From positions 1 to 33,056 of IMG/VR virus record IMGVR_UViG_3300020457_000042: a stretch of DNA of 33,056 bases. The stretch is one strand, 5' to 3'. The translations under genes were made by a program, and so were the position numbers. Of the stretch, positions 899 through 31,055 are shown one piece after another. Source of the stretch: a virus. The notes under the pieces were generated by a model. The model saw only the letters and a program-made list of their open reading frames with translations. It searched no databases and was not told the origin of the DNA. Every line of letters starts with the position of its first letter. The stretch's first letter is position 1.

Positions 899-906
899 TA
901 TTTATT
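899..906 (-). promoter_or_regulatory. Late promoter AATAAATA before the 81-aa gene and terminase
   Basis: The minus strand reads AATAAATA, matching the NATAAATA late promoter core used by T4-like phages with their own gp55-type sigma factor. It lies in the 38-base gap after the 572-residue gene stops, about 25 bases before the next ATG. It probably drives the 81-aa gene, the nested 48-aa ORF and gp17. Confidence 0.65.
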
Positions 907-911
907 AAAAT

Positions 912-2630: not shown

Positions 2631-2672
2631 GTTATGAGTATCTTAGTACTTTGGGATTTCTCTCCCTATGTT

Positions 2673-4099: not shown

Positions 4100-4121
4100 T
4101 GTTATAGTCCTGACATTTTAT

Positions 4122-6355: not shown

Positions 6356-6379
6356 CTATCTACTTTACTAGTATAATGT

Positions 6380-6387
6380 TATTTATG
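6380..6387 (-). promoter_or_regulatory. Late promoter CATAAATA before gp13
   Basis: CATAAATA on the minus strand overlaps the stop of the preceding 129-aa gene (TCA TAA). It ends 24 bases before the gp13 ATG. It probably starts the gp13-gp14-gp15-gp16 transcript. Confidence 0.65.
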
Positions 6388-9900: not shown

Positions 9901-12900
9901 TGTGCCAGATTCAGTAACTGTTACTTGTGCTAATACACCAGGAGCAGTGTAAACTTCCTGCCAGAATTGAGTTTCAGGTGGTGTATAATCTTGACTATCT
10001 GAACCTATTTGTTGAGTATCAGTTGTAGTATAAGTGCCTCCTCCACCACTAGTACTACTTCTACTTTCAGTCTGTATTTGAGTATGAGTATTAATATTTC
10101 TAACACTGATAATAGTAGATTGAACTGTTTCAATAGAACCAGATGAATCAAATGTTTGAGAAGCATCAGTTCCTACATCAGTAGCTTGTTGACTATTAGT
10201 AGAACTGCTTGTAAGTCTAAAGACCTTCTGACCAGCTTCAAATTTTGGTGTGGTTATATCATTAGGATTAGGTATAAAGAAAGATCCTCTAACTGATCCT
10301 AATGTATCAGTTCTTAAATTTAGATTAGTTATAGTAGCTTGAGCACTAGAAGTTTGTCCAACTAATTTAAGACCTTTTTCTACATATCCATAGTAAATAT
10401 TTTCAGACTTATCTGCTAAACTTAATGTATCAACATTCAAAATATTAGAAGTTGAAGAATATTCATCAGGAAGAATAATAGTATCTGCTGTTACACCAGA
10501 AACATCTCCATCTGCTGCTGTTGGTAATACATTATCAATTAAAACAGTTCCCCTTCTAAGAGGAGTAGATCTAAAATAAGGATTTGTATTATATACAACA
10601 CCAGGATCATCAAAAGGACCAAATTTATGATTAGATACAGCAACTCTAAATCTAATTAATTCTTTTCCATCTTTTGTAGTTCCTATGACAGTTTCTCCAA
10701 CTTGGAAAGTGCCTGTGACCATTGATATTTCAATAAGTTTTGGAACTATGAATTTATTAATATTTTCACCATCAAAGAAACCAAATACACTAGTGGTAGG
10801 TTTTAAACCCTTACAAGAGAAATCTATATTCCTAGATCTCATATAAGGAGTTATATCAGTATTAATTACTTTTGGACCTTCATTAATTGTACTAAATGTT
10901 TCTCTCTCTATAGATCTCCTTCCTTTTCTTTCTTCAGTGATATCTACTGGATTACTTCTAAAAGTAGTTGTGGTTGTTCTATACTTATTTCTAGATCTAT
11001 ATCCATTTTGTTCAGTCCATCCACCCCAATGAGTATTGGAATTTGAACCAATTACAGTATCGCCACCACCACCTGTCCAAGTGGTTTCCCATCCACCCCA
11101 TATAACAGGACTATATCCAGTATCAGGGTCCCATCCACCTGCTGCTACTTGTTCACTAGTTTCTGTGTAAGTTGTAAGATCTTCTAATTTAGCATCTAAA
11201 ACAACTTGATCTACCCATACATCTGATGATGGTGTTAATGTAATACTACCTCCATAGTAGTTTATGAGGAAAGGTGTTACACTTTCAGTTTTAGTAGCAA
11301 ATGGTTGTCTTACAAAAGGTATATTTTGATAATCTAAAGATAATACTCTACCTGTTTGTCTAATGCCATTAAAACTATTACCATCTAATTTTAAATCAAG
11401 TTCAGTGGTATAAGGTGAAGGTCTAAGTTCCCCATTTTTAAAGTCAATACTATTTTTTACTATAGTTTTTTTAAGTTGATTGTCTGTAGTAGAAAAATCA
11501 TCTACAAAAAATCCAGACTTAAATCTATTCAAACCATCAGTATCAGTGATTTGCATATTTAAGGTATCTTTTTCCAATAAGGAAAGAGTTGTAAAAAATT
11601 CTAAATTTTCAATTCTTTTCTCTAACTTATTGATATCACTCATTTGATATCTCTTATAGTTAGCTAGACTAATATTTAAATCATTAACTTCATATAAGAA
11701 AGCTGGTAGAGAAATAGAAGCAACTTCTAATGCACCATCAACAACATTTGGAAACTCTGGTGTTTCTGCAGGAATTCCATTTACTAGTTGGAATGTTCCA
11801 TTTTTACTTAAATATATTTTATCTAATCTAGGAAGATAGAATGAAAAATCTAATAGTATTGATTCATCAGATGCTAAAATATTTTTAGATGAATTACCAG
11901 AACCAGTAAATGATCTTCCTAAAAACTCAAAAGGAGAATAACTAGTGCCAGAAAAATCTGATACTCTTGGTCTAATATCTAATATATCACTTACATTAGT
12001 TTTATTAATGCTAGGTAGATCTTTATAATTAAAATTATCATATGAATTTACAGTGGTGATATCTCCAGTATCTGATGCTGCAAAAAATGCAGATTCAAAT
12101 ACTATAGATAATCGTTTAGATGGTTCATTAAAACCAGACTTTCTAACCATTCTTGCATAATCATAAATGGTTCCCCTTTGACCATCATCATAATCAAACT
12201 CTTCTGTTATATTGTTTGATCCTAAAGAAGTAGAAACCACTGTTGCTTCAATTGAAGATTCTTCAAAGGTTACAATTTCATTATCTTGGAAAGTAAAATC
12301 ATTCAATGCAAGATAATTTACAGTGGAATCATCATGTTTACTTACATATATTCCTTTAGCATTACTATTTTTTCCTATAAATGTTTCTCCTATCAATAGA
12401 TCACCTGTTTTTCCAGTAGAACTATTAATAGAACGTAATACAACTCTAGGAAAAACTGGATTACTAGCGTTGCCAGATTCTATTACTCCATAAATTTTAG
12501 TTACATCTGGTACATTTAACGATATCTCCTCATCTTGAACCCTAGTTCCATACACAGTTCCATAAGTAAGACCATCATTCAATGTATCAGTTCCAATTCC
12601 AGATGCTGATAATTTAGAATTTGTTATTGTTACTACGTTTATCTTTTGTTTTTCTTTAATTTTTTCTCTTACATTTGTTTTTCTTAAAGTGGCTATAAGT
12701 TTTGCAGAAGTATCACCTCCCAAACCATTAATAGTTACTTCAGTAGAACCTGTATTAAAATTAAATTTATCAGAGGATAATGATTCTGTTACACCATCTG
12801 TTCTAATTAATACATATCTTTCTTCATCATAAGGTAAAAATGTTTCTGATGCACTTCCACTACTAACTGCTCCTGTGGAGTTATTAGTAATATCAACATC

Positions 12901-15000: not shown

Positions 15001-16569
15001 TTAGAATTGCAAAATGACTTTGATATCTTCTCTTTGGTTAGCAGACCTAGTGATAGAAGGTCTGTTATCAACATATATTATATTTCCAGAGTATTTTTCA
15101 ACTTCAGGATTTGCAACCCCTTGATTAAAACTCTGTCCAAGGTAATATGTTCTATTATTTATTACTGTACTTATACCAGGACTACCTGCTGAACCAAAAC
15201 TAGTGTCTATCCCTAGTGTTCCTTCATTACTAGCGATGCTAACATTTCCACCACTTGTTGGGTTTGCAGTAAATCTATGTAGAGCAAATCCATATTTAGG
15301 ATCTGTTTTCAAAGATCCATCACTGTTGAATCCAACCAAACTCTTATCTTGCCAATATTTTAAAACACCAGTCACTTGATCATATGATATGACTCTACCA
15401 ACTGCTGTAGATCCAACTCCTACAGTTTGAGTAAATTCACTATCCAAATCAAAAGTAGCAGTGGTATAACCTGAACCAATTAATTTTAACCCATAAACTG
15501 CACTTGCTTTGGATAAATCTAAATGTGCAGTAGAATTAAAAGCTTGAGGATTTTCTACAATTCCTATTCTTGCTATTTGGTTTCCTGTTATGAAGTCTGG
15601 ATTCTCAGTGTCATTTTCAATTTTAGAATAAACTAAAACATTACTTGCTCCCAATTCTCTATAGATGTCTGCTCCATGACCACCTTGAGGTGGTATGATA
15701 ACATTGAAAACTGGTGATGTGGTTCCTACAGGAACTCCACCAGCAACTAAATCTAATGTACCATAAGTATAATTAGAACCACCCTTTGAAATATTAACAG
15801 ACTCTACTTTAGCATCATTGTTAATAACAATTGTTGCTTCTGCTCCAGATCCATCTCCATTTATAGGAACTCCTGTATATGTTCTATTAGCAGTTCCTAT
15901 TCCAGATCCTCTGTTAACTATGGTAGCAATCTTTAATTGTCCACTGGTAGAGGCATTATCTCTTACAGCAGAATTATCTGTTCCTGTGGCCCAATCACCT
16001 GGTACAGGTATAAAGTTAGTAGAATCAAATTTTGCTATGTCACTTGGTTTGATTGTAAAAAGATATTTCCATATATAACCATCTCCACTATCACCTGCTG
16101 CTTTAGGTTCTAAGTCTGTAAATGTAGGTTGATCTAGTGAAGGTCTTCCTGTAGTATTTTCTGGATCTGTTCCATTTTGCAGACAAATATAAACTTTAAA
16201 ATCTTCATTGACCACATAATATTTTGAAGAATACAAACTAGTAGCACCAGAGGGTTGTGCCAGATTTGTCCTACTTATATCACCACGATACATGTCATAA
16301 GTTATACCTGAAGTCCAAGTATACTTATTACACATTCTACGTATATCTGAAGGAGTTATTTTCTTCAACGCAATCATAGTATCCCAATAATCATTTTCTT
16401 GTTCAAAACTATCCTTTGGTGCAGGAGGGTTTGAATCCCAAGTTGATGAGTAATTGGTAGCATTAGGTAAACCAACAAAAGAATAATATGAATTTACAGT
16501 AGAAGTTGCTGCAGAGACAAAATTCTCAGCATTCAATATTCTAAGTTGATCAGTTATAATGGCTGACAT
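15001..16569 (-). CDS. 8: Baseplate wedge protein gp8, enlarged
   Basis: Wedge subunit that joins gp7 and gp10 in the T4 baseplate. Length 522 against 334 in T4. Family marks are ITDQLRILNAENFVSA (5-20), DYWDTMIALKKITPSDIRRM (60-79), YKVYIC-like FKVYICLQNG (124-133), GDGYIWKYLFTIKPSDIAKF (162-181), PPQGGHGADIYRELGA (293-308), and the C-terminal NQREDIKVILQF. Insertions include a GSGxxxxxxYTGVPINGDGSGAEATI segment (about 221-248), a matching SKGGSNYTYG (261-270) and GSGYTTATFDL (366-376), all of the GxGY repeat type also seen in gp14 and gp7. A late promoter ends 18 bases upstream. There is no Shine-Dalgarno. Confidence 0.9.
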   Translation of the reverse strand: MSAIITDQLRILNAENFVSAATSTVNSYYSFVGLPNATNYSSTWDSNPPAPKDSFEQENDYWDTMIALKKITPSDIRRMCNKYTWTSGITYDMYRGDISRTNLAQPSGATSLYSSKYYVVNEDFKVYICLQNGTDPENTTGRPSLDQPTFTDLEPKAAGDSGDGYIWKYLFTIKPSDIAKFDSTNFIPVPGDWATGTDNSAVRDNASTSGQLKIATIVNRGSGIGTANRTYTGVPINGDGSGAEATIVINNDAKVESVNISKGGSNYTYGTLDLVAGGVPVGTTSPVFNVIIPPQGGHGADIYRELGASNVLVYSKIENDTENPDFITGNQIARIGIVENPQAFNSTAHLDLSKASAVYGLKLIGSGYTTATFDLDSEFTQTVGVGSTAVGRVISYDQVTGVLKYWQDKSLVGFNSDGSLKTDPKYGFALHRFTANPTSGGNVSIASNEGTLGIDTSFGSAGSPGISTVINNRTYYLGQSFNQGVANPEVEKYSGNIIYVDNRPSITRSANQREDIKVILQF

Positions 16570-16587: not shown

Positions 16588-16595
16588 TATTTATG
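16588..16595 (-). promoter_or_regulatory. Late promoter CATAAATA before gp8
   Basis: CATAAATA on the minus strand overlaps the gp7 stop (ACA TAA) and ends 18 bases before the gp8 ATG, leaving a leader of about 10-12 bases. It probably gives independent transcription of gp8 and the DUF4815 gene after the 12-kb gp7 gene. Confidence 0.65.
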
Positions 16596-19500
16596 TGTTA
16601 TAATTTGCAGATTTCAAGGGGTTAAATCTTTCTACAATTGGAGAACTAGATATCCCACTTAAACCTGTAGAATCTCCAGCATAAGAAGTGAATACTCTTG
16701 CTTTTGCTCTAGGTTGAGTTTGAATTCTACCCCAACTATATTCTCCAAAGAATTCACTATGTCCCAGTCCAGTTAGTCCATTAAAGTCTTGAACACTCAC
16801 TGTTACTTGTGCAACATATGTTAGTCCAATTCCTATACCCATAGTTTGAGCGATAGAAACTTGAGCAACTTCATATATGTTATCTACAAATGATGTTCCA
16901 ATACCTACCACAGTTCCATCTTGATATAAAGAAGTAACTGCATTACCAACATTAGAATTGCGAACTGTAAAATAATATCCAGTTTGAATTCCACTAACAG
17001 TTATGGCAGATCCTACAATGGAAGCATCTCTGAATAAAGAATCTTTTGGAAGTAGTAAATCAAATACTATACCAGTTGATGCCACTCCAACAGATGTAGT
17101 AGATATGCCAGATATAATTCCAAAATCACCAGAGAAAGATACATCATCAATAGTTTCAATAGAAGTTATTAATTTAGGTTCACCTATTAGAACTGATGGA
17201 GCAGCAGTGCTAGTATATGCAAATCCAGTGGTGGTTCCACCAAATGAAACAGTAATAGCATTAACAGTTCCAACACCACTTATAGTAGCTGTTGCCCTAG
17301 CACCTTGAGAAGTTGTCAATCCTACTGGGGTAGTAATAGAAACAGATGGTGCTATGGTATATCCAATACCAGGATTGGTAATATCAAATGAAGTCACTGT
17401 TCCAGCAACTGAGACAAAAGCAGTTGCTGATGCTCCCACAAAACTATCTTGAGAAATAATTCTAATTTTATTTTGAGTATTAAGATTTTCTTTAGTGCTA
17501 TCAAAGAAAGTTCTAATATTAGAAACAAAAATAACAGTAGATCCAACACCAACAGATTGAATAATATTTGTATTTGGATAAATCAATGGTTCATAATGAG
17601 GTCTATCTTTTGGAACTGCCTCTCCATCAATAAACTTATCCTCAGTTTGTCTAGACCAAGTAACAGCCCTTTGGAAAGTTTCATTGGTAGTAATACCAGG
17701 ACCAGGATAAATGTTAGTATTTACACTATCAGAAGAATTAACAATTGTAACTGTTCTCTTATTTTGTTCTAATGATATATCCTGATCATATAGTTGTAAT
17801 TCATCTCCCTTCTTAACTGTTTCTAAGATGTCAATGTTAGCAACATCAACAGATCCAGTTCCTCTATAGAATAGAATTTTGGATGTATCACCTGCTTTTG
17901 GTGGTTCTTTGAATGAAATAAAACTACCACCTTTAAATTCATATCCTTCTCCAGGAACTTGAAGAACATTATTAATGAATACTAATATAAGAACCTCAAC
18001 ATCTATATTAGAACCTGGTTTAGATTGAATTGTTTGCTGCGTTCCATTTAACTTTAATGCAAAAGAAATTGTTTTACCATCAAATAATGAATCTAAAGGA
18101 TCTAAAACTTGGAAATCTCCAACAGTGAATCCAGCAAAACTATCGCTCACAGTCTCATTAACTGTAAGTTGAAATTCTCTAAATTCTGCAGCACCTGCTG
18201 TTGGAATACCTACAGTTCCACCAACACCTACAGTCAACTTTTGAGTTTCTCCATAAGCATATCCTTGATTTGTAATTTTAAAATCAATAACACTACCACC
18301 CAAACCAACAACTATATCTGCCCTTGCTTCTGATCCAACTCCAGATTGATTTGAAGAATAGAATAAAGGCATATTACTATAAGATAGTGGTTCATCTATA
18401 ACAACCAATGGAGGATTAGTAGATGTATAACCAGTGCCAGGATTAGTAATAGCGACACTTACAATATTACCACCACTAATAGCAGCAGTACCAATAAATT
18501 CAATATTAGGAGATCCAGTGCTTAATGTCTGAACTCCAACATTGACAATAGTTTGAACACCAACTCTATAACCAGAACCACTGTTTCCAATACTTACAGA
18601 ACTAATAGTTCCTAATCCAGAAACAACAGCAGTACCACCTGCAGCAACTAGTGGTTGATATCCTAAACCTTCAGTAGACCCAACAGAAACTATAACACCA
18701 CCTAAAGGAACATTAGATGTATTAGGATCAGATGCCACTGATGAAATAGATCCTGTAAATTGAATACTAGTAATTCCTACATTCTCTATTAATGTAAAAT
18801 CACCAGGCACAGATACATTGCCAGTAAATCTTTGTGGTCCTTGAGCAATTTGATTAACTAATATAAGAGCATTATTTGTAGAGAATCCTGCTACATCACT
18901 ACCATCAGATTTAAGTGTGAATTCAGTTGTTAATCCAGTGAAGTTAGCAGAAATATCATCAAATATAAAGTTACCAGCATATGGTTCATCAGAACTACCA
19001 GTAATACCAGATCTCATAAATGCTCTTGCATTAAATGTTGAATGAGTTGCTATTCCAACAAAATCCCTTTCATCTGGTTCATTTGTTGTGGTTGAAATTG
19101 GAGTCAATCCAACAGGAGCAGTGTAGAAGTTGACAGTGCTATCAACAATATTATACGCACCTTCTACTTTGGTGATTAGAGTGCCATCAGTATGTAATGT
19201 AGATTGTGTTCCCATCCAAGGTCTAGTAACGAGTAAGACATTTGTAGCACCCAATCCAACAGAATCTACCTTCATAATCTCATTTCCAATCTTCAACATA
19301 TCACCACCAGTAATAGAGGTGATACCAGATAATTTAATTTTATCTGTAGTAGCTGATACATCAGCACTAATTGTTGTAGTTACTGAAGTAGCAACTATTG
19401 GAGATTGGATAACATTATCAATGCTTAATATGCATCTTGAGTTTTGCTTACTAGAAGTAAAGGAATGAGAAGTTCCAACACCAACAGCAGTGATATCTAA

Positions 19501-22500
19501 GTAAGTAGGTGATGTCTTCAATGCATTCTCAGCAGAAGTAGCAAGTCTAAGAGTAGAATCATCAACCTTAATAGCATAAACCTCATCTGGCAACTTATCT
19601 GTAGTTCCATATCCAGTTATTGCTTGCTCTTCAATTATGATAGCAGAAGTAGTACCAGATCCAGTATATCTGTAATTTAATTTTTCTCCAGTTACAAAGT
19701 AATGATCAGGTATTCTAATTGTATCTTCAGTCAAACTAACTGTTGTAGTAGCACTTCCTACGAAGTCTCTCTTAAATATTGGCAATTGCCTATGCTTAAG
19801 TTCAAACTCTCTCTTAACATCAGTTTCAGTAGCAGTGTAAGCACCAAACCCAGTATCAATAGTAGCATTAGTCAAATCTATTTCAGTGACTTCACTAAGT
19901 TCATTTACTAATCTTAAAGCAACTTGGAATACTCTAACCTGAACATTTGCACTTGCTATTGGTGTAAATGTTAAATTAGTATTGTCTCCAGAAATAGCAG
20001 CACTAAAATCACCTAGATTAGTTACAGTTTGATTGATTGCATACTCAGTGATGTATGGAGTAGTTCCATCATCAACCACTATAACTTCAGATATTTGATA
20101 GTGACTATTGGTGGTATCTTCTACAGATACAATATAGTATGCACCATTAAAGGTTTCACTTTCATATGATGCTATTGTAGTAGCAGATGGTGAACCACTA
20201 GCAGATATAGCAGTATATCTTGAATCTAATTGAGAAGTGTTCAATGATGTAGTGCCAACACCAGCAGATGAAGAATTTCCAAAATCTACATGAACAGTAT
20301 TAGCAACAAATGTGCTTGCAGTGCTAACAGTTGGATGAAGATCTAAATTAACTCTACCTCCAGCAATATAGGCACTATAAGTTCCAAGACCAGGTTCACC
20401 AGATGCACTACCAACATTTGATGTTGTTAATTGTCCATACTCTACTAAATCTACATTAGTTCCATCATGAACCAAAGTTATTTCATCATGCTCAAAGTAT
20501 GATGAATCACTAGCAGCATATGATACTAGTATCTTAGATCCTCTGTAAGTGGTGGCAAAGGATACAATACTGTGCTGTGTAGTGATTCCTAATGGTATGG
20601 TAGTGGTGCTACTTACAATGTTAACAATACCACCCAACCCAGTGGAACCTACGCCAGCAACACTGTCAGAGATGTTAAATGCAACATTAGATACATCATA
20701 ATTATTAAACTTAAATTTCTTAGGGAAGAATAGCAATCTTCCATCATCACCAGCGATGTCCATGTCATAGGAACCTAAGTCTCCACCAAACTCACCAAGG
20801 TCAGTATTAGTTTCAACTCTACCATATTGATTTAAGAAGATATTACCAACATCATCATGAAGAGCAGAGACCAATAGAATTTGTCTTTCCTTAGTAAATC
20901 TTTTATCTCTAATAAAAGTAATATACTTTCTATATCTTACACTTGCTAGAGTAAAAGTATCAACAGATTGAAAAGCATCTGTTCTAGCATTATTATTAAA
21001 ATCTCCACTAATATCATCAACTGTCAATACTCTATTACCAATAGACTCACTATAATCTTGAAGTATTCTAGTATCAAAAACTATTTCATCAGAAATAACA
21101 CTATTGTCTATTCTTAAAGTTTTCTCTCTTACTAAATCAAAATCAAATACTGTATTCAGATCCATTGTTGAAACTAAGTCTGTAATAACTTCAAATTTAG
21201 TTTCATCTTGAACTGTGCTTATTCCAGCATCAGATTCACATCTAATAACTAAATCACTAAATTTTTTAAATCCAGCAGTATGGTTCAAAGAGCAAACTGC
21301 CTCCCTCCACTTAGTAAACTGAACTTCAGATTGAAGTGAATATGAAAAATATTGATAATAGTCACTATCAAATATTCTTTGTAAATTATCATTCAAGAAT
21401 CCAAAATTATCTTTCCATCCTTCATTCACTATAGAGGATGCATCTACATCATATAGAGAATTATAAGATACTACATCAATAACAGTGGCTTTTGTTTCTG
21501 ATGATTCACCTATTAGAGATTCTCCTTTCTTAAATACCTGAGGAGAAGATACTTTAAGAATTCCAGTTTGTTGGTTTGTTGATTGCAAAATTCCTTTTTT
21601 ATCTCCACTAATCAATGTCTCCCCTATCTCAAACTTATTACTCTGCAACTTAATATCAAATATAGGAAAATGACTTTCTGGAATAATCTTAGCAGAAGAA
21701 AGTGCTGATATAAAAGTTCCTGGAATTGAACCAGTAGGAATAATATTACTTAAACCATATCTTACAGTTCCAAGAACTCCACCTATATTAGGATGTGTTG
21801 CTTTAATTTCAAATAAAGTATATTCAAAATTCTCACTATTATATCCCTTTCCAGTGCTTCCTACTCCAACACTTACACCCTCTATCATAACTCTCTTACC
21901 CACCTCAAATGGATAATCTGCAGCATCACTGAAACTAGCACCAATGGTTACTGTTACATCTTGTGTTGCTTCATTAAAATCAAGATTATTAATTGTAATT
22001 CCATTTGAATTACTAGTAGGAATAATAGTGGGTGTTACATCATTTAAATTTTTACTATTCTGCAAAATAGTAACTTCAGTATCGCCCAACTCATAATCTA
22101 AAGCTATATCAGGAACTCTTTTTTTAGTTAATCCATCTAAGACTACTAATCCAGGTGAGTTTAAATAATTTTTACCTACAGAAGTAATTCCTACTTTAAC
22201 TATGGATGCAAGAGCATCTACTTCTATTAACTGAGGAAGTTGTGATTGTGGTCGTAAAGTTTTATCTGCAGAATAATCAAAACCAATATTTTCAATATTT
22301 ACATTTGATATTCTACCTATGGTACTACTTTTTGGTTTTAAAATTGCACCATTACCAAAACTAGATACAATAGTGCTAATACCAGGCAAACTCTTATATC
22401 CAGATCCTTTGGATGTGATTAGCACTGATTCAATGGGTCCATATGCATTATTAGCATCTGTAGAATAAGTTAACACACCATCAGACTCTACATAATTTAA

Positions 22501-25500
22501 TTTTTCTGGAGAAACTTGTAAAGAGAAGATAAAGGTGGTAGTTCCAACTCCAACTAATGTTTGGTGTCCACTTAAAGGATTGGTAGTTAAAGATAAACTA
22601 TTACAACCAAAAATATTATCTTTATCTCTTATGATTTCTTTTTTAACATTAGTATTAAGAGTATCGTTTATAGGAGTTAAATTATAATATAAATCTTTCT
22701 TGATTTCTCCTGTATTTTTAATAATCAAAGAGGCATCAGCATCTATACCAATATTTCCAGTTTTAGTAACATTAAAATCATCAGTATCTCCTGATGTAAA
22801 GAATAAACTATTTAAGTTATTGTCAAGATATAAATCAAAAGAAAAAGCACTGTAAGAAACTTCATTATTGATAAATGATAAAGAAGAATCAGATAGATCA
22901 AATTTTATTCTCTGATCTCTTTCTACCCTAACATTGGGATTGATAGGAGATATAGTGCCAGCAGAAGCACTTGTAATATTAATTACATCTGGTTTTGATT
23001 TTATAGATTGATAATACTGATTACATAATTTTATAGAATCTGAATCCAAAACATAAACATAATAAATTCCATTATCAAATAATCCACCAGATGCTGTAGA
23101 TGCTGTATATATTACTTTTTGTCCATTTTTATATCTATGTCTAGGAATAGATATGCTATTGGTAGATGTATTAACATCTCCTGAAGCGAATGTTCTAGGA
23201 TCAATAACTAGTCTTCTATTATAATCATTATATGCAACTTTTACTGTAGTAGTAATTCCTGGTAGAACATTTAAGAATACACTATCATTAGCCTCTAATC
23301 CATGAGTTGAAGCTGTAGATACTGTTGCTAGAGATCTTTCTACTTTACCACTTAAAACATTTTCATGGTTTGTTTTTAAACTATGGAATAAACCTGTTCC
23401 TATCCCAGTGAAAAATAGAGTGCTAACATTAGAATTAGTGCTATTGATTCCAACAAAAGATCCAGTAGAACCAAGTCCAACTCTAGCAGTTGATATACCA
23501 ATTAAATCTTTAGATAATACAGATGCAAATACAGTTTGCTCATTAGTTAGAACAAACTCCATTGTGCCATCAGTGGAAACTCCTAAAGCAGTTCCTCCAT
23601 TAGTTCTATAGGTTAGTGAATCTCCAGACTTTAATCCATGATTTCTAAAATAAATGGATTTGGTAGGAACAAAAATTTCGCTAATACCAGAACCTGGGTT
23701 TGAGAAAAATAAAGTAGACCCAATCCCAACACCAGAAACATTTCCTAAAGATACAGATTCTTTAGGATCAAAATATAATTCTCTATTAATTCTATAATTA
23801 GAACTATTATTTTTATTTGGTGGAATAAAGAATAAAGATCTTGGATTCTGAGTTATGAGAGAGTTAGCAGTATGAGAAGATCCCACAGTGGAGTCATGCT
23901 GTCTTATAACTCTAATTCTTGATAATTTCTCATCAAGATTCAATACCTTTATTTTTTCAGTTCCTATTCCTAAAATATCATTTTCTTTAATGTAAGTAGA
24001 ATTTACATTACCAGAAATATTAAAGAAAGTAACTATACCTGTGGTAGAAATTCCAGCAACTTCTTCAAATAATTTAAATGTTTCAGTTCTTATACCTATG
24101 CTTTGTATATTACTATTACGTAATCCATCTGTGCTTAATCCACTAACAGTAACAAATTCTTGTTCATGTAAGTTGTGAGGAGTTGTGGTAAATCCAACAT
24201 AAGTATGAGTATTTTCATAAGGAATAAATTCAACATTAGAGAAAGTTGTGCGAGCAACACTAATTTGATTTATCTTTTTACCACCAACTAGTTTTACTCT
24301 AGCTTTAGCTTTAAATCCACTAGTTCCATCATTATCAAATTCAATGCATTCAGTTGTTCTATATCCACTTCCTCCAGTAGCAATACCTACATCATCTATT
24401 GATCCAGAACTTACATCAGTAATAAATGTTTTTTGTTGATTAATAGAGTTAGGATTAACTAAGAAATCATAACTAGAATTATCAAATAAGAAATTGTAAG
24501 GACGTGTATTTCTAACTAATTCTGTTCTATTTAAATCTATATCATCCTGATTTGATGTTAGAGAGAAATTATATTCTATAGGTTGATGTTTATATGAATT
24601 ACCTATAAAGTAAGGGAATTTGGGTCTTCTAAAATTTTTAAATGACCCTTCAGAATCTTTAACATCAGGATTAATTGTAGCAAAGTATGCATACACTCCC
24701 TCTGGGTATTCTGGAGTTTTGCAGAATCTACCATTATGTTCATCTAAATCTTTACCAGTTTGGAATTGATGATCTTCTACAAAAAATCCATTTGGATATA
24801 TTTGCTGATCATTTTCTGTAAGAGGGTTGGGTCTATGAGATGTTATAGCTACATTATAACCAGATTCAAGTATTTTTATAGGACCTCCAGAATTATCATT
24901 AAATCCATATGGACCATAGATAGGAGCTCCATCATATGCCCATCCAAGTATTGGAGAATGATTTTCAGAATCTTTCTCAATATCATTTTCTAATGATAAA
25001 TCTGGAATGAAGACCTCTTTATCTCCAACTGGTTTTCTAACAAAAGTAGATTGTCTTAATTTTCTAGGTGAATATAGATGCGTATATTCTAATTGATAAT
25101 TAGAATTTAATCCTTTACTTACAACTCCATCATCAGTTGTAATTTGATCATTTTGAAGTAATCTTTCAAATGTATTGATAGTCCAAGTTCTTGGATTAGA
25201 ATAGAATTTAGCTTGATCTCCATTATTAGTTATTTTTATTTTTGCTGATGAAGAGGTATATCCAATTCCACTATGAATGACTTTGACAGAATCTATAGAA
25301 CCACCTTTTAATACTGGATCAATAACACATCCTACACCCTCTCCAACAATTTCTAATTTGGGAGCAGAGTTATATTCAGAACCAGAACTTAGAACTAATA
25401 CTTCTTTTATTTTTCCTTCAACTGATACTATGGGAAGTAATTGAGCATTCTTTCCAGTTTTTAAATTAAACTCTGGTTGCCTATTATAATTGATAATATC

Positions 25501-28500
25501 TGAAGATCCATATCCTACTCCACCATCAACCACATAAACTGACTTGATAGATCCCTTACCTGAAGCTATTAAAGAAGCATCAAAGTTTTGTCCACTAAAA
25601 GTAGAAACTCCAATATGTCCAGATACTGTTACTGTGATAGGAGGATAGTTAAATTCATGGAAACCACTACCACCATTCTTTAAGTCAATATATTCTTTAT
25701 TATTCAAATAAAAATTAGACGCTGTAGAACCTACACCAACAGCAGATAATCTGAAAGAATCCCCATTTATTTCTGTAACATAATAATCAGTTAAAGTTGT
25801 TAGTCCAGTTATAGGTGTTCCTTTAGTATCATATCTAACTTTTTCTCCAGTCTTATATCCATGACCTTTAATATTAATTAAGTTGGAAGCAGTATTAATT
25901 CCAGCAGCAGTTATTGAAGTTAATCTATTTTTATATCCAGAACCACTATTTCCAATACTTACAGAACTAATTATTCTTTTTTTAGATTGACATTTAAGCT
26001 CTTGAATACCAACACCAAAAGCAGTGAGATTGACAGATGAAACTCCTACTATGGCATCTGAAAAATTATTATGCAAAGATACAGTGGTAGAATCTTTAAC
26101 ACAACAAAAATAAACAGCATTGGTTGTTAAACCAGATATTGCAGTTTGTTTTTCTGTATTATATGAAATAAGTTCACCATCTCTAAATTTATGAAAAGTT
26201 GAGAACCCTATTGTATTATTAGTAAGATTTACTAAACCAGCACTTTCTGTTGAGTCAAATTCAACAGAATGATTTACTAAAACTAAATTAGGAGATGCTA
26301 CACAACCAAAACCATTTCCACCACTTACTTTTAAAGTTGGATCTGTAATATAATCAAATCCACCATCTAAAACTTTAATTTCATCAATAGTTCCTTCAAC
26401 TTCACAAAAAGCAGAACATCCAGTTCCAACTGTGTCTGTAACACTTAATATTGGTGGATTTGATATGTCAAATCCAAAACCAGGACTAGTAACTGATATT
26501 TCATCTAAAGGACCATAATAAACAACATCGCTTGATTTATAATTCAGTATTTCTACACCATTTACCAAAATACCTGTTTTTCCACTTTGAGTAGATTTTG
26601 AGGATGTAGACTCAATTGGTGTTTGTACTTTTCTTATTAATTTTTGAGATTGTATTGATTTATTGGAAAATTCTGATATTTCAAACTTATTATTACTTAC
26701 ACTACCAGAAAAAGATATAAAATTAGAATTACTAATATTAGCACTACTTCTAGAAATTTTTATATTATTGATGTCTACTTTTTTAATAAAATACTCACTT
26801 TCAGTAATATCTAATTTATTATCTCCTTCACCTGCAACATAAGTTACTCTTTCTCCAGTGAGAAGACCATGATTGGGTATATTAATTGTATCGCTGTTAT
26901 CAAAAGATCCAGAAAATAAAATATCTGTTTCTCTGATATCTAGAGCATCATTAAAATAATTTGGTATAGATGGGGATGTAATATAAGTGCAATCTTTATC
27001 ATCTAAGTAAGTATTTTGAATATTAGCAGTAAAAATGCTAGTTGTAGGATAATTGCTTAAATTTGCCTTAGATATTAATTTTTTAATTGTATATTTTGTA
27101 AGGAGTGATAATTCACCAGCACCTTTAATTAATACTTCTTTTGAACTTACTAAAGAAATTATAGAGCACTCAATATCATTAATAAGAGCATTATCTCCAA
27201 TAACAAAGGTATGAGTATCAAAAAGGGTAAGTTTATAGGTAAAGTTAGATGCGTCAATCAACTCAATAGATTCTACTTTGTAACTAGTAGAAATATTGGA
27301 AAATAAACTTTTAATTATTTTATTTTCAGTATTAGAACCCAAACCTTTAGGTTCTATAACATCTCCAATTTCACTGTACTTATTATCTTCAAAAGAAACA
27401 TCTAAATTAGAAAGAACACCAGTTATCCTGACTGTAACCCTATCTGCAGTTCCTATGCCAGCAAATCCATAAGCGAATGTGTTTATTATGATATCTTGAG
27501 CAGAAGAAAGATTTTTATCTACACCAGAACAATCAAAAAATTGATTTAAAGATTTTGACTTGTAATTTATGATATTAGAAGTTCCATCTGCAAAATTAGC
27601 TACTAGACTACCAGTAGTTCCAAATCCAACAGTGGAATCTACAGTTAATACTGTAGAACCAATTGAAATAGATTCAACTACTTTGGTATTTGGATGAATT
27701 GAAAAATTACCAGTTACATTAGTAGAATTTGGTGTAAAATCAAGACTTATTCTATAATATACCTTTCCATCTCTTACAATCTTTTCAACATCACTAATAG
27801 CACCTGTAGCTTCAGAAAAACCATCTACATTATCTTGAAATAAATTTCTATTGACTAGTTTTTCTGGATCTCCTTCAATAGCCTCTACTACAATCTGTTT
27901 TGAGATTTTATAATTTGCTTCTGAGGGTATAAAAAGAAAATCACGTGGTTTTAGTACTTCTACATCCTCACCATACAAAGCTCTAAACAAAATTTCAAAA
28001 GATTGATCAGTTCCTTTGGAAGAATAAAAATCTTTTACTTGTTTTGTGAATAATCTTTGATTAACATTAGAAGATAATGTTCTTTCTTCAAATCCAGGAT
28101 TTACTTGTTTTTTTACCTTAGTAAAAAATTCTTGTAAAAATATAATACTTAAATTATTAACAACTGTTCCACTAGAATGTGTAGAAATGCCAGAATTAGT
28201 AAAAATTAACTCATCTTGACTACCAGGATTTCTATAAGATGTAATTCCACTAAATCCTCTTGAACAACCAGTAAAACTATTAGTAGTGATACCAGTATAT
28301 GTAATAATTTCAGAATCTATCTCAAGTAATCCATAAGACTTAGGAAATCCTGTAGTAGAGTCTACAGATATGGTATTATCAGCGATTCCTACATTAGAAG
28401 ATAAAGATGTAGAGTCTATTAGATCTGTTAGTTCATCAACTTTGACATATTTGTCAATATTCTGCAAAACATCCAAGGTAGAACCTTGACCTTCTAAAGA

Positions 28501-28611
28501 AGTATAATATTGTGCTAAAAAATCTCCAGCAAGTGGAAAATCATCCTTTATAAAATCAGGAAGTTGATTCTTGACAACTGAACTAATTTTTACTCTTGTA
28601 TTTTCTGGCAT
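16591..28611 (-). CDS. 7: Giant baseplate wedge protein gp7 (4,006 aa)
   Basis: Wedge protein that in T4 nucleates the arm with gp10, gp8, gp6 and gp53. T4 gp7 has 1,032 residues, so this is about four times longer. The gp7 core is recognised by the N-terminus (KNQLPDFIKDDFPLAGDFL at 14-32, FLQEFFTKVKKQVNPGFEER at 158-177, RALYGEDVEVLKPRDFLF at 210-227), by GWKDNFGFLNDNLQRIFD near 2398 with QYFSYSLQSEVQFTKWREAV after it, and by its place between gp6 and gp8. Added modules: GxGYxxxP repeats throughout, six HGxxTGE-type repeats (His 581, 807, 917, 1658, 1825, 2970), a YHYH domain (about 1210-1344), three HDGT beta domains (about 2555-2905), a GNEIMKVDSV module near 3105, and an INNVLQVPGEGYEFKGG block near 3560. 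The start has no Shine-Dalgarno and follows gp6 by 14 bases. The reading frame is unbroken. Confidence 0.88.
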   Translation of the reverse strand: MPENTRVKISSVVKNQLPDFIKDDFPLAGDFLAQYYTSLEGQGSTLDVLQNIDKYVKVDELTDLIDSTSLSSNVGIADNTISVDSTTGFPKSYGLLEIDSEIITYTGITTNSFTGCSRGFSGITSYRNPGSQDELIFTNSGISTHSSGTVVNNLSIIFLQEFFTKVKKQVNPGFEERTLSSNVNQRLFTKQVKDFYSSKGTDQSFEILFRALYGEDVEVLKPRDFLFIPSEANYKISKQIVVEAIEGDPEKLVNRNLFQDNVDGFSEATGAISDVEKIVRDGKVYYRISLDFTPNSTNVTGNFSIHPNTKVVESISIGSTVLTVDSTVGFGTTGSLVANFADGTSNIINYKSKSLNQFFDCSGVDKNLSSAQDIIINTFAYGFAGIGTADRVTVRITGVLSNLDVSFEDNKYSEIGDVIEPKGLGSNTENKIIKSLFSNISTSYKVESIELIDASNFTYKLTLFDTHTFVIGDNALINDIECSIISLVSSKEVLIKGAGELSLLTKYTIKKLISKANLSNYPTTSIFTANIQNTYLDDKDCTYITSPSIPNYFNDALDIRETDILFSGSFDNSDTINIPNHGLLTGERVTYVAGEGDNKLDITESEYFIKKVDINNIKISRSSANISNSNFISFSGSVSNNKFEISEFSNKSIQSQKLIRKVQTPIESTSSKSTQSGKTGILVNGVEILNYKSSDVVYYGPLDEISVTSPGFGFDISNPPILSVTDTVGTGCSAFCEVEGTIDEIKVLDGGFDYITDPTLKVSGGNGFGCVASPNLVLVNHSVEFDSTESAGLVNLTNNTIGFSTFHKFRDGELISYNTEKQTAISGLTTNAVYFCCVKDSTTVSLHNNFSDAIVGVSSVNLTAFGVGIQELKCQSKKRIISSVSIGNSGSGYKNRLTSITAAGINTASNLINIKGHGYKTGEKVRYDTKGTPITGLTTLTDYYVTEINGDSFRLSAVGVGSTASNFYLNNKEYIDLKNGGSGFHEFNYPPITVTVSGHIGVSTFSGQNFDASLIASGKGSIKSVYVVDGGVGYGSSDIINYNRQPEFNLKTGKNAQLLPIVSVEGKIKEVLVLSSGSEYNSAPKLEIVGEGVGCVIDPVLKGGSIDSVKVIHSGIGYTSSSAKIKITNNGDQAKFYSNPRTWTINTFERLLQNDQITTDDGVVSKGLNSNYQLEYTHLYSPRKLRQSTFVRKPVGDKEVFIPDLSLENDIEKDSENHSPILGWAYDGAPIYGPYGFNDNSGGPIKILESGYNVAITSHRPNPLTENDQQIYPNGFFVEDHQFQTGKDLDEHNGRFCKTPEYPEGVYAYFATINPDVKDSEGSFKNFRRPKFPYFIGNSYKHQPIEYNFSLTSNQDDIDLNRTELVRNTRPYNFLFDNSSYDFLVNPNSINQQKTFITDVSSGSIDDVGIATGGSGYRTTECIEFDNDGTSGFKAKARVKLVGGKKINQISVARTTFSNVEFIPYENTHTYVGFTTTPHNLHEQEFVTVSGLSTDGLRNSNIQSIGIRTETFKLFEEVAGISTTGIVTFFNISGNVNSTYIKENDILGIGTEKIKVLNLDEKLSRIRVIRQHDSTVGSSHTANSLITQNPRSLFFIPPNKNNSSNYRINRELYFDPKESVSLGNVSGVGIGSTLFFSNPGSGISEIFVPTKSIYFRNHGLKSGDSLTYRTNGGTALGVSTDGTMEFVLTNEQTVFASVLSKDLIGISTARVGLGSTGSFVGINSTNSNVSTLFFTGIGTGLFHSLKTNHENVLSGKVERSLATVSTASTHGLEANDSVFLNVLPGITTTVKVAYNDYNRRLVIDPRTFASGDVNTSTNSISIPRHRYKNGQKVIYTASTASGGLFDNGIYYVYVLDSDSIKLCNQYYQSIKSKPDVINITSASAGTISPINPNVRVERDQRIKFDLSDSSLSFINNEVSYSAFSFDLYLDNNLNSLFFTSGDTDDFNVTKTGNIGIDADASLIIKNTGEIKKDLYYNLTPINDTLNTNVKKEIIRDKDNIFGCNSLSLTTNPLSGHQTLVGVGTTTFIFSLQVSPEKLNYVESDGVLTYSTDANNAYGPIESVLITSKGSGYKSLPGISTIVSSFGNGAILKPKSSTIGRISNVNIENIGFDYSADKTLRPQSQLPQLIEVDALASIVKVGITSVGKNYLNSPGLVVLDGLTKKRVPDIALDYELGDTEVTILQNSKNLNDVTPTIIPTSNSNGITINNLDFNEATQDVTVTIGASFSDAADYPFEVGKRVMIEGVSVGVGSTGKGYNSENFEYTLFEIKATHPNIGGVLGTVRYGLSNIIPTGSIPGTFISALSSAKIIPESHFPIFDIKLQSNKFEIGETLISGDKKGILQSTNQQTGILKVSSPQVFKKGESLIGESSETKATVIDVVSYNSLYDVDASSIVNEGWKDNFGFLNDNLQRIFDSDYYQYFSYSLQSEVQFTKWREAVCSLNHTAGFKKFSDLVIRCESDAGISTVQDETKFEVITDLVSTMDLNTVFDFDLVREKTLRIDNSVISDEIVFDTRILQDYSESIGNRVLTVDDISGDFNNNARTDAFQSVDTFTLASVRYRKYITFIRDKRFTKERQILLVSALHDDVGNIFLNQYGRVETNTDLGEFGGDLGSYDMDIAGDDGRLLFFPKKFKFNNYDVSNVAFNISDSVAGVGSTGLGGIVNIVSSTTTIPLGITTQHSIVSFATTYRGSKILVSYAASDSSYFEHDEITLVHDGTNVDLVEYGQLTTSNVGSASGEPGLGTYSAYIAGGRVNLDLHPTVSTASTFVANTVHVDFGNSSSAGVGTTSLNTSQLDSRYTAISASGSPSATTIASYESETFNGAYYIVSVEDTTNSHYQISEVIVVDDGTTPYITEYAINQTVTNLGDFSAAISGDNTNLTFTPIASANVQVRVFQVALRLVNELSEVTEIDLTNATIDTGFGAYTATETDVKREFELKHRQLPIFKRDFVGSATTTVSLTEDTIRIPDHYFVTGEKLNYRYTGSGTTSAIIIEEQAITGYGTTDKLPDEVYAIKVDDSTLRLATSAENALKTSPTYLDITAVGVGTSHSFTSSKQNSRCILSIDNVIQSPIVATSVTTTISADVSATTDKIKLSGITSITGGDMLKIGNEIMKVDSVGLGATNVLLVTRPWMGTQSTLHTDGTLITKVEGAYNIVDSTVNFYTAPVGLTPISTTTNEPDERDFVGIATHSTFNARAFMRSGITGSSDEPYAGNFIFDDISANFTGLTTEFTLKSDGSDVAGFSTNNALILVNQIAQGPQRFTGNVSVPGDFTLIENVGITSIQFTGSISSVASDPNTSNVPLGGVIVSVGSTEGLGYQPLVAAGGTAVVSGLGTISSVSIGNSGSGYRVGVQTIVNVGVQTLSTGSPNIEFIGTAAISGGNIVSVAITNPGTGYTSTNPPLVVIDEPLSYSNMPLFYSSNQSGVGSEARADIVVGLGGSVIDFKITNQGYAYGETQKLTVGVGGTVGIPTAGAAEFREFQLTVNETVSDSFAGFTVGDFQVLDPLDSLFDGKTISFALKLNGTQQTIQSKPGSNIDVEVLILVFINNVLQVPGEGYEFKGGSFISFKEPPKAGDTSKILFYRGTGSVDVANIDILETVKKGDELQLYDQDISLEQNKRTVTIVNSSDSVNTNIYPGPGITTNETFQRAVTWSRQTEDKFIDGEAVPKDRPHYEPLIYPNTNIIQSVGVGSTVIFVSNIRTFFDSTKENLNTQNKIRIISQDSFVGASATAFVSVAGTVTSFDITNPGIGYTIAPSVSITTPVGLTTSQGARATATISGVGTVNAITVSFGGTTTGFAYTSTAAPSVLIGEPKLITSIETIDDVSFSGDFGIISGISTTSVGVASTGIVFDLLLPKDSLFRDASIVGSAITVSGIQTGYYFTVRNSNVGNAVTSLYQDGTVVGIGTSFVDNIYEVAQVSIAQTMGIGIGLTYVAQVTVSVQDFNGLTGLGHSEFFGEYSWGRIQTQPRAKARVFTSYAGDSTGLSGISSSPIVERFNPLKSANYNT
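18567..18606 (-). repeat. 40-bp near-identical direct repeat in gp7, copy B
   Basis: Compared by eye with 25932-25971, 38 of 40 bases match, in the same reading frame. Both copies encode the peptide SSVSIGNSGSGY. Similarity at the DNA level is far higher than among the other GxGY repeats, suggesting recent duplication or gene conversion. Confidence 0.85.
19897..20949 (-). repeat. Three diverged copies of a beta domain in gp7 (HDGT domain)
   Basis: Residues about 2555-2650, 2685-2778 and 2820-2905 share the pattern Y.I.V......I..v.HDGT.....EYG.l....lG.fs..I.G....L.f.P, with ALHDDVGNIFLNQYG, LVHDGTNVDLVEYG and VVDDGTTPYITEYA at the core. The C-terminal cap of the 572-residue fibre protein (INVIHDGTNTYMNEFG) is a fourth member. 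Such domains are common in marine phage fibres from memory. The role is probably surface exposure or binding, by inference. Confidence 0.75.
24580..24984 (-). other. YHYH-type domain inside gp7
   Basis: Residues about 1210-1344 carry the ordered motifs of the YHYH family: HSPILGWAYDGAPIYGPYG from His1218, LDEHNGR at 1289-1295, VYAYFAT at 1306-1312 (where the name-giving YHYH would lie), and PYFIGNSYKHQP ending near 1344. The two His of the YHYH motif are replaced by Ala and Phe, so if the parent family uses them for metal binding this copy may have lost it. Recognition is by motif order, not by a search. Confidence 0.75.
25932..25971 (-). repeat. 40-bp near-identical direct repeat in gp7, copy A
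   Basis: Partner of 18567-18606: 38 of 40 bases are identical by eye and in frame. It lies about 880 residues into gp7, right after an HGxxTGE-type repeat and before another one at His917. Confidence 0.85.
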
Positions 28612-28625: not shown

Positions 28626-30653
28626 TTAATATGAAGATGAAGAAGAGGATGCTGAAGTTTGTAGAGGAGTGAATACACTACTGGACCCTACTCTATATGT
28701 ATCTGAGGAAGTCAAGGTAGTATTTGCAGATTCAGACTCAGTTAGTCTGGCTAACTCTCCTTTAACATAACTTGAAGTTGCTGTGAATGTAGTTCCTGCA
28801 GTGCTCTCACCAGAATCAATACTATCAGGGACCATATCTACAGTAGTGTTACCAATATCTAATTGTAGGTACAAATCTTGCAATCCAATAACATCATTAG
28901 ATTGAGGACATGCTGATACCTCAATAATTGGTATATCTTGAACCTTTTTAGATGTTCCTGTAATATTAATTGGTTTGATTAAAATTTCACCTTTTTCATA
29001 ATCAATGGTTCCTACATTACTGCTTACTATGGTTGATGAGGCTTTTCCATCCAATTTAAATAAGAATAAATTACCAACTACATTATCAGTAGGAATATCA
29101 CTTAAATAGACAGTATCTGCTATTCCAAATATGTTAAATCCAGATGATCTAATATTATAACCACTCATTCTCTTTATATAGAATTTATTACCAAAACATA
29201 ACTCATATTCTGCTCTTTGATTCAATGCAGGCTTCATATCTCTTCTAATTTCAATTTTACTGATATTAGAAGTTATAGATTCATTACTATTGTCTACAAT
29301 TGTTTGAAATCTGCTATATTTGAATCTTGCTCCATATTTATTCAGTTCTGAGGAATCAGAATACTTAGTAATGTTATTTGTTACCACAGTTTTTACAGCA
29401 TCTGCAGTTGCTGCTAAATTAGGATTATAATATGCATTAATATGTGCTTCAATATACAAATATTTCAAATCTTGGATTTCGCAAACAATTCCAGCAACAG
29501 AATATTTCTTTAATAAGGTTTTGAGATTATTTTTAATGGAATCTGGAACAAAAGGTCCATAAAATGGTTTTATAGTGATAAAAACTTTTCCATATTGTGG
29601 AGGAGTCAATTCTTCACCTCCAAAAACTGAAACTGACTCAGTTTCTGGGTAAATTTTAGGAATCAGTGCCTCATAATCACCTGCAGTGACTGCTCTATTG
29701 AATGTAGAGTAAATTTTAGGTGCAAAACGCTTAACAGAGTCTATAGATTCAATTTCTTTACCTCCTACAGACTCACTTACTGAAGAAAGTAAGGAAATTC
29801 CTGTGCTTACAAGGTTATTATTGTTATCTACTATTCTTCCATTAAAATTAAAGGAAGAAATGCCATTTGCTGCTTCTCCATTGCTAGTAATATAGGAAAC
29901 TTCAATATAATTTTGTGCTTTTAACTTTTCTCCAAAGACACCATCACCAAAAATGAGTTCATATCTTTGATCTTCCACTTCTTGAATGAAATATACACAT
30001 GAAGAGGAGGTAACTTCTATCAATGTATCAGAAAATACATATTTTTTAGCAGAAGTGCTAGATTCAGTCTGTCTTACAGTGACTTCTAGGGTAGAAGTGT
30101 CAATATTTGCATTATCTAGAGTATATCTTGAAGGAGGAGCAGGTGTTTGAGAGGAAACAGTAAAGTTTGAGGTCAAAAATGTCCCTTCAAAGATAGTAAC
30201 ATTGTTAAAAGTAGCAATTCCATCAACTACAGGCACTGTTACATCGCTTGGAATGCAAAAAGAGTAACTTTCTGACCCAAAAACTGCTGAAGATGTAGCA
30301 ACTATACCTTTTTTAAGTGTAAGTGTAACAGGTTTAGTAGTAAATCCAGTTGTATCTACAAAAAATGATATTACTGCCTTTGCTGCAGTCCTTGATCTGG
30401 GTGTATAACCTATATTTCTTGCTAATGCAACTACATTTTCTCTTAAAGTGGCACTATCTATGAATACTTCATTGCTAACCATGTTAGCATTGTAGGAATT
30501 GATGTAAGTATTGTATGCTAATACATCAATTATGTTAGAAAGGTTAGATCCTTCAAAATCATAATCAGTAAATTCAGAATTTTCCCTCAAATAATCAGTA
30601 AGTGAGGTCTTTATCTGATCAAAATCTAAATTTGTAAAATTTACTAGTGCCAT
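28626..30653 (-). CDS. 6: Baseplate wedge protein gp6
   Basis: Dimeric wedge protein that forms the continuous inner ring of the baseplate with gp25 and gp53. Length 675, close to T4 gp6 (660), so unlike its neighbours it has not been expanded. Family signatures are the N-terminal FTNLDFDQIKTSLTDYL, DYDFEGSNLSNIIDVLAYNT at about 29-48, the helix YINSYNANMVSNEVFIDSA at 50-68, LRENVVALARNIGYTPRSR at 70-88, and the later FNRAVTAGDYEALIPKIYP. The last 30 residues are very Ser/Thr-rich and end in six Ser and a Tyr, probably a flexible tail. The ATG follows the gp25 stop with almost no gap, so it is likely cotranscribed and coupled with gp25. Confidence 0.95.
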   Translation of the reverse strand: MALVNFTNLDFDQIKTSLTDYLRENSEFTDYDFEGSNLSNIIDVLAYNTYINSYNANMVSNEVFIDSATLRENVVALARNIGYTPRSRTAAKAVISFFVDTTGFTTKPVTLTLKKGIVATSSAVFGSESYSFCIPSDVTVPVVDGIATFNNVTIFEGTFLTSNFTVSSQTPAPPSRYTLDNANIDTSTLEVTVRQTESSTSAKKYVFSDTLIEVTSSSCVYFIQEVEDQRYELIFGDGVFGEKLKAQNYIEVSYITSNGEAANGISSFNFNGRIVDNNNNLVSTGISLLSSVSESVGGKEIESIDSVKRFAPKIYSTFNRAVTAGDYEALIPKIYPETESVSVFGGEELTPPQYGKVFITIKPFYGPFVPDSIKNNLKTLLKKYSVAGIVCEIQDLKYLYIEAHINAYYNPNLAATADAVKTVVTNNITKYSDSSELNKYGARFKYSRFQTIVDNSNESITSNISKIEIRRDMKPALNQRAEYELCFGNKFYIKRMSGYNIRSSGFNIFGIADTVYLSDIPTDNVVGNLFLFKLDGKASSTIVSSNVGTIDYEKGEILIKPINITGTSKKVQDIPIIEVSACPQSNDVIGLQDLYLQLDIGNTTVDMVPDSIDSGESTAGTTFTATSSYVKGELARLTESESANTTLTSSDTYRVGSSSVFTPLQTSASSSSSSY

Positions 30654-31055
30654 TTATCTTGTTGACTGTAGTGCAAAGTTTAATTGTTGAGGAAGAGCAT
30701 CAATTCCTATGATATCATAGGAGATAGTAACATCAAATTCATGATTTTCAAAGTTAGGTTTCACTATAACATCCTTTAATGTCACTCTTGGTTCATATTT
30801 TTGGATACATTCTGCTATTTCATCCCTAATTGCAGAGGCAGAAAGGTCATCCATCACATCAAAAAGCAATTCACTTACTCTAGAACCCAAATCTTCATTA
30901 AAAAAACGTTCACCTGGCACTGTAAGCACCAAATTTCTAATAGAACGTCCAATGGCAGTCCTATTTTTAATGCTAATTAGGTCGTCGTTGATGGGATTTA
31001 TCTCAAAAGACATGCTAATGTCCTTAAAACCCCTACTAACCCTCTCTACAGGCAT
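30654..31055 (-). CDS. 25: Baseplate wedge protein gp25
   Basis: Small wedge protein of the gp25-like family shared by contractile tails and type VI secretion (TssE-like), which sits in the inner baseplate ring and touches the sheath start. Length 133, against 132 in T4. The core runs NRTAIGRSIRNLVLTVPGER, FFNEDLGSRVSELLFD, SAIRDEIAECIQKYEPRVTL and EFDVTISYDII. A second in-frame ATG at 31011-31013 (MSFEINPIND) has a better ribosome site (AAGGA, 7 bases). I keep the upstream start because the late promoter points to it and because homologues I recall begin MPVxRVSRGFKD. First gene of the late cluster here. Confidence 0.95.
   Translation of the reverse strand: MPVERVSRGFKDISMSFEINPINDDLISIKNRTAIGRSIRNLVLTVPGERFFNEDLGSRVSELLFDVMDDLSASAIRDEIAECIQKYEPRVTLKDVIVKPNFENHEFDVTISYDIIGIDALPQQLNFALQSTR

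Follow-up and report, generated by a model that had tools for sequence, protein, structure and literature searches.

A gp7-type baseplate wedge protein of 4,006 residues, with a split core and a domain predicted to share the fold of the T4 gp9 C-terminal domain, on a virus contig

The virus contig IMGVR_UViG_3300020457_000042, whose 33,056 bases are here called the window, carries on its reverse strand one reading frame of 4,006 codons without a break, flanked by the baseplate genes gp6 and gp8 and taking up 36% of the window. What kind of protein is this, how is it related to gp7 of phage T4, and what might its additional mass do? A sequence-only reading had taken it for a gp7 enlarged about fourfold into a mosaic, filling over a third of the window and keeping gp7 signatures at residues 1-230 and 2398-2470; the ratio (T4 gp7 has 1,032 residues), the share of the window and the position of both signatures all agree with what we found. 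Our preferred answer, held with fairly good confidence, is that it is the wedge-initiator gp7 of a T4-like marine cyanophage of the Kyanoviridae type, in which a small core would build the wedge and the additions would form an outer ring holding fibres or adaptors and probably touching the host envelope. The gene and its conserved parts are as follows.

16591..28611, minus strand: gp7-type baseplate wedge gene, ATG to stop, 4,006 aa
28414..28611, minus strand: core block A, residues 1-66, helix-turn-helix-like N-terminus
27721..28164, minus strand: core block B (LFTKQVKDFYSSKGTDQSFEILFRALYGEDVEV), residues 150-297, profile matching T4 gp7
21463..27720, minus strand: insertion between blocks B and C, residues 298-2383, 2,086 aa, with putative beta modules and the YHYH domain
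21172..21462, minus strand: core block C (GFLND..Q...DSDYYQYFSYSL.SE....W...V..L.HTAGFKKFSD), residues 2384-2480
16594..21171, minus strand: C-terminal extension, residues 2481-4006, 1,526 aa

Profiles of the core blocks were built from giant gp7s and run against gp7s of all sizes, and against the 177,635 distinct sequences of the Protein Data Bank (PDB). The block B profile, made without T4, had T4 gp7 (725-758) as its top PDB match, with E=5.1e-8, followed by the gp7 of a Klebsiella phage; block C also had T4 gp7 (865-892) as its top match, weakly (E=0.058), with E about 0.004-0.009 in small sequence sets. In T4 gp7 the Pfam domain V (766-861) lies between the B and C motifs and domain VI (920-1012) after both. 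The gene order gp25-gp6-gp7-gp8 is that of the cyanophages S-SM2, Bellamy and P-SSM2, and gp6-gp7-gp8 is that of T4, while the family phrog_2885 ('baseplate wedge subunit', 4,179 positions) matches residues 4-3367 (E=0, 3,516 bits). On core homology, gene order and this family match, we assign the protein to gp7.

Blocks B and C were found in all tested gp7s, including that of T4, the exception being a second gp7 gene of phage S-SSM7, which corresponds to the C-terminal part only; block A was present in all tested relatives with blocks B and C, down to gp7s of 503 residues, except T4. The smaller proteins come from Stenotrophomonas phage BUCT608 (503 residues), Ochrobactrum phage OC (631), pelagiphage Mosig (874), Sinorhizobium phage phiM7 (1,006), T4 and S-CRM01 (1,454). 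T4 aside, blocks A, B and C together span 185-320 residues while the total length varies from 503 to 6,737, with 80-2,724 residues separating B from C and 21-3,128 following C; in S-RIM8 and S-WAM1 the A-B junction has also been opened, by about 600 residues. The match to the Pfam family PF23786 (Baseplate_wedge, 284 positions) lies close to block B in several relatives, whereas in OC and S-CRM01 it falls on block C. This pattern, together with the spacing of the blocks, suggests that the two signatures are halves of one small core, which in the window protein lie 2,086 residues apart. The conserved wedge core would then amount to about 310 of the 4,006 residues, in three blocks, and the giants appear to have been opened between B and C and extended after C.

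The closest cultured DNA to the queried stretch, from S-SM2 and DSL-LC03, is 73-77% identical across only 1-2% of it. In IMG/VR, scanning for homologues turned up 23 complete ones on other contigs, of 4,001-4,032 residues and 64-97% identity, which align collinearly with the window protein from first residue to last. The ratio of nonsynonymous to synonymous substitution rates (dN/dS) against four homologues was 0.10, 0.19, 0.19 and 0.23, and in each 400-codon bin nonsynonymous changes per site were fewer than synonymous ones; purifying selection acts on every stretch of the gene. The sequencing or assembly error that the sequence-only reading had named as a possible refutation is excluded by these complete homologues and dN/dS values, as is an open frame arising by chance. 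A search for tandem duplication at the DNA level within the gene found none, and the repeats described below are old and visible at the protein level only. A scan for promoters and terminators found promoter-like sites no more often than in shuffled sequence, and so gave no evidence of a separate transcript. In the comparison with the nearest homologue (L006, gp7 start base 913), differences rise from about 6 to about 30 per 300 nucleotides near codon 2700, within the M5 array described below, and this jump suggests that alleles recombined there.

Proteins of this size are in fact normal in the family. The first 900 residues match 492 annotated phage records, cyanophages almost throughout, and the gene in the gp6-gp8 slot of cultured phages is often annotated as gp7 or baseplate wedge initiator: S-SRM01 (3,895 residues), Bellamy (4,067), S-SCSM1 (4,120), S-SM2 (4,156), ACG-2014f (4,225), P-TIM68 (4,307), P-HM2 (4,454), P-SSM2 (5,195), S-RIM8 (6,395) and S-WAM1 (6,737). 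Annotated gp7s in cultured cyanophages thus reach 3,000-6,737 residues, and the window protein is a mid-range, ordinary member of a known giant family. The earlier description of it as an under-described structure does not hold in the sense of an unrecognised one: a relative of 6,619 residues, S-SZBM1_208, has been identified in virions by mass spectrometry with 71 peptides and 13.5% coverage (PMC9146016), and another, S-CREM2 ORF122, with 91 unique peptides and 27.2% coverage (PMC10665884). Because 13.5% of 6,619 residues is about 890, more than the core of about 310, the virion peptides of S-SZBM1_208 would not be confined to the core, and the other refutation named by the sequence-only reading, peptides from the core alone, would not apply to this relative, so far as Table 1 of PMC9146016 allows a judgement. 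What is new is how the core is split and that gp9-type domains are present, the size of the protein being already known.

These domains, which we call M5, occur three times in tandem, just after block C.

20719..20946, minus strand: M5 copy 1, residues 2556-2631
20323..20577, minus strand: M5 copy 2, residues 2679-2763
19894..20238, minus strand: M5 copy 3, hidden Markov model match 2811-2887 and fold match 2792-2906, predicted gp9 C-terminal-domain fold

Residues 2360-2960 were modelled with AlphaFold2 from 34 sequences. The overall confidence was low (mean predicted local distance difference test, pLDDT, 50), and the M5 domains reached about 60-88, the third mostly 73-88. Foldseek gave T4 gp9 (1qex) as the best match of the M5 model (E=7.2e-5), and VIA-align, in which the background begins at Z of about 5, placed residues 2792-2906 on 1qex 171-288 with Z 12.6, a root-mean-square deviation of 2.4 Å over 111 residues and 14% identity; the next matches of the third M5 were tailspike and tail-fibre domains, with Z 6-11. 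The second copy had antibody-like matches at the background Z of about 5, and the sole clear fold match is that of the third. Among eight T4 tail proteins the M5 profile picked gp9, at 194-259 (independent E-value 1.6e-4). The third M5, as modelled, shares the fold of the C-terminal domain of T4 gp9 and of tailspikes, and common descent of M5 and gp9 is likely. The protein as a whole is not filed as gp9 because the gp9/10 N-terminal domain (PF07880) was absent from a Pfam scan of its full length.

Elsewhere in the window, a fibre-like protein of 572 residues (912-2630, minus strand) stands in the place of the 'phage tail fiber-like protein' of S-SM2, which there lies between gp16 and gp17. It has a coiled-coil-like middle and a copy of M5 at residues 482-559, near its C-terminus.

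The remaining additions were resolved with iterated profiles, which hit neither shuffled nor reversed control sequences. The sequence-only reading had counted at least five kinds of extra module, and five repeated modules were recovered (M1 eleven times, M2 six, M3 two, M4 two and M5 three) together with a single YHYH domain, so that its picture of a mosaic stands, at least one added domain having the predicted gp9 C-terminal or tailspike fold.

17332..26514, minus strand: span of the eleven M1 copies (GxI..V.I...GxGYt..P), residues 700-724, 739-762, 881-895, 1065-1089, 1103-1121, 1401-1425, 2057-2079, 2099-2116, 3334-3350, 3379-3405 and 3736-3760
26752..26886, minus strand: M2 (HGLxTGexVxY), first copy, residues 576-620; further copies at residues 807-846, 912-956, 1653-1691, 1820-1863 and 2965-3024
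28246..28371, minus strand: M3 copy 1 (EIITYTG type), residues 81-122
27526..27645, minus strand: M3 copy 2, residues 323-362
18832..18963, minus strand: M4 copy 1, residues 3217-3260
17860..18084, minus strand: M4 copy 2 (NGVLQxPG type), residues 3510-3584
24667..24975, minus strand: YHYH domain (PF14240), residues 1213-1315, 77.1 bits against a cut-off of 25

Profiles of M1-M4 found nothing convincing among the T4 wedge and hub proteins. The YHYH domain lies within gp7 in all 11 of the cultured giants (at least 3,000 residues) that were checked, and anywhere in the record in none of the six phages whose gp7 has 1,454 residues or less. Only positions 87-184 of its profile match the window protein. 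The histidines of YHYH form a proposed metal site, and a metal-dependent hydrolase has been proposed (PMC7824862), a role that is doubtful here because in the window type of gp7 this degenerate domain does not keep the signature histidines (YTHLY stands at the upstream motif, YAYF at the downstream one); H1218 and a DGxPIYG motif are retained. We did not adopt an active hydrolase for this protein. Several YHYH matches (L180-L187) lie in contigs whose titles name bacterial or archaeal metagenome bins, in phage-gp7-type surroundings such as 'QYSHLYAPRxLRE'; these contigs are probably cyanophage fragments binned with cells.

The neighbouring genes follow the order gp25, gp6, gp7, gp8 and VrlC, then gp13, gp14, gp15 and the small terminase subunit.

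30654..31055, minus strand: gp25 baseplate wedge
28626..30653, minus strand: gp6 baseplate wedge
15001..16569, minus strand: gp8 baseplate wedge
6988..14994, minus strand: VrlC/DUF4815 protein, 2,668 aa, beside gp7

M1, in its GxGYt..P form, recurs in this operon, with four copies in gp14 (4122-5510) and further matches in gp8 (15001-16569) and VrlC (6988-14994), all on the minus strand, so that one short putative beta module is common to several of its virion proteins; M3 is present in VrlC too. Just upstream of gp25, a protein of 255 residues (31486-32253, minus strand) matches phrog_1574, of unknown function, and, weakly, a phage glycosyltransferase family.

In the relatives, domains that the window joins in one chain are found on separate ones. 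In S-SSM7, two genes are annotated as gp7: the first, of 3,007 residues, matches residues 1-2556 and 3004-3119 of the window protein, and the second, of 3,001 residues, only stretches of 3126-3999. The gp7-gp8 interval of S-WAM1 and S-RIM8 holds extra YHYH proteins, and proteins with the gp9/10 N-terminal domain (gp9/10_N) occur in that interval in S-WAM1, S-RIM8, P-TIM68, S-SCSM1 and Mosig, and in S-SSM7 between its gp7 genes; the separate Mosig protein bearing this domain ends in an M4 module. This distribution speaks for a peripheral, modular role of the additions. The S-SSM7 locus (L094, 18001-37095) is a natural split, soon after block C, with the gp9/10_N-bearing gene between the halves encoding 340 residues.

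On the reading that we prefer, the three-block core of about 310 residues would join the gp6 dimer and start wedge assembly, a role suggested by T4 and related contractile tails, and the additions, at a T4-like number of about six per virion, would make up the outer ring of the baseplate; one chain would then do part of the work done in T4 by separate peripheral proteins. We infer that the core lies in the wedge and that the additions occupy the rim, where they would hold fibres; that the additions bind a receptor directly is speculative, and the host-recognition scaffold projecting far from the baseplate, as the sequence-only reading had it, is a conjecture. T4 gp7 is a six-copy monomer on which gp9 sits, the long fibres being carried on the C-terminal domain of gp9 (PMC3004832), and the predicted gp9 C-terminal or tailspike-type fold among the additions fits a role in fibre holding or host contact. 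For holding fibres or spikes there is precedent in the gp7-type proteins of two small contractile phages: in XM1 the spikes are held by two parts of gp17, a gp7 orthologue of 242 residues, namely an internal loop at 80-106 and the C-terminal tail at 201-242 (PMC10457771), and the C-terminal loop of A-1(L) gp32 touches the long fibre (PMC10966104). A narrower proposal, that in window-type cyanophages gp7 has taken over some of the work of T4 gp9, the fibre connector, with tandem gp9-type domains on the wedge chain holding fibres or binding the host, is a tentative one that we consider possible and rather unlikely; if true, host contact and wedge opening would be coupled in one giant polypeptide.

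Several results weigh against this interpretation. The block C match to T4 gp7 is not significant alone, and we regard it as credible, not proven, because its order is collinear with that of block B. Block C was unfolded (pLDDT about 20) when modelled apart within residues 2360-2960, and an AlphaFold2 model of a whole small pelagiphage gp7 (L099, 874 residues) was unusable, with a mean pLDDT of 43; the profile of this same gp7 found no chain in the PDB. When the M5 profile was run against all PDB chains, gp9 was not among the matches, so that the link to gp9 comes mainly from the fold and may mean only a beta-sandwich common to tails. Nor did M5-bearing gp7s show a clean trade-off with a separate gp9/10_N gene, which (T4 aside) is present in two of the seven phages with M5 in gp7 and in four of the nine without it, and a clean replacement of that gene by M5 is not supported.

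The alternative that survives best gives the additions a chiefly mechanical part: a beta scaffold that fills space, widens and stiffens the baseplate and ties wedges together, and that itself contacts neither fibre nor receptor. The presence of M1 in gp14, gp8 and VrlC, which are partly proteins without a receptor role, suggests that a large share of the added residues is material in general use for building the virion, and purifying selection throughout the additions would suit a scaffold as well. We nevertheless find this improbable, in view of the gp9/tailspike-type fold predicted for M5, the M5 copy near the C-terminus of the fibre-like protein, and the faster evolution of the insertion in one comparison (L012), where nonsynonymous differences per site (pN) were about 0.13-0.21 over residues 401-2400 and 0.07-0.08 after 2400.

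Proteolysis of the chain into a core and peripheral pieces that assemble separately is a good deal less probable. The two S-SSM7 genes suggest that separate chains can work, but the single-chain length is constant in the 23 homologues, and the virion studies of S-SZBM1 and S-CREM2 give many peptides and, in the parts of those reports drawn on here, do not report fragments (PMC9146016, PMC10665884).

It has also been stated that T4 gp7 is absent in cyano- and pelagimyophages, with VrlC in its stead (PMC7029224), in which case the 4,006-residue protein would be something else. We consider this very unlikely, since block B matches T4 gp7, VrlC instead matches the solved DUF4815 protein ORF65 (PDB 9euf, E=2.4e-38, four stretches), and gp7 and VrlC occur together in one operon in the window, in S-SM2, in P-HM2 and in Mosig with its small gp7. 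This co-presence corrects the published view of gp7 loss in these phages. Last, an assembly error or an artificial fusion of several genes has no point in its favour and was rejected as practically refuted by the equally large genes annotated in cultured phages, the 23 collinear homologues and the dN/dS values.

Some of the most abundant phages of the ocean count giant gp7s among their largest proteins, and in the literature searched we found no structure of a marine cyanomyovirus baseplate. The split-core map, with about 310 residues expected in the wedge and about 3,600 expected to be peripheral, eases domain-by-domain work on structure, mass spectrometry and fibre binding.

Among known systems, Vibrio phage XM1 gp17 resembles the window protein by position, its internal loop and C-terminal tail being the holding parts and the giants being enlarged at broadly the same places; it differs in that the block B search of the PDB gave no detectable sequence match to it, and no sequence alignment with it was obtained. 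T4 gp9 differs in being a separate trimer with the N-terminal domain PF07880, which the window protein lacks. In the gp7s of BUCT608, OC, Mosig and phiM7 the three core blocks follow one another as they do in the window protein; 80-768 residues separate B from C and 21-348 follow C, compared with 2,086 and 1,526 in the window. T4 gp7 shares block B and, weakly, block C in the same order, and the same slot between gp6 and gp8, whereas its own larger addition is N-terminal (1 to about 640), ahead of the core, and has no counterpart in the window protein; block A, YHYH and M1-M5 were not found in it. Because this N-terminal bulk is not shared, the window protein is better seen as one version of a shared core, about 310 residues long, that each line has enlarged in its own way: the sequence-only reading was right in naming it gp7, and wrong in deriving it from T4 gp7 by expansion. 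Closest are the Kyanoviridae gp7s of S-SM2 (41% identity with the window protein), Bellamy (44%), P-TIM68 and P-SSM2, which share the gp6-gp8 slot, the YHYH domain, the three M5 domains and a collinear sequence along almost the whole chain, and which differ from the window protein in divergence and somewhat in C-terminal length, and not in kind.

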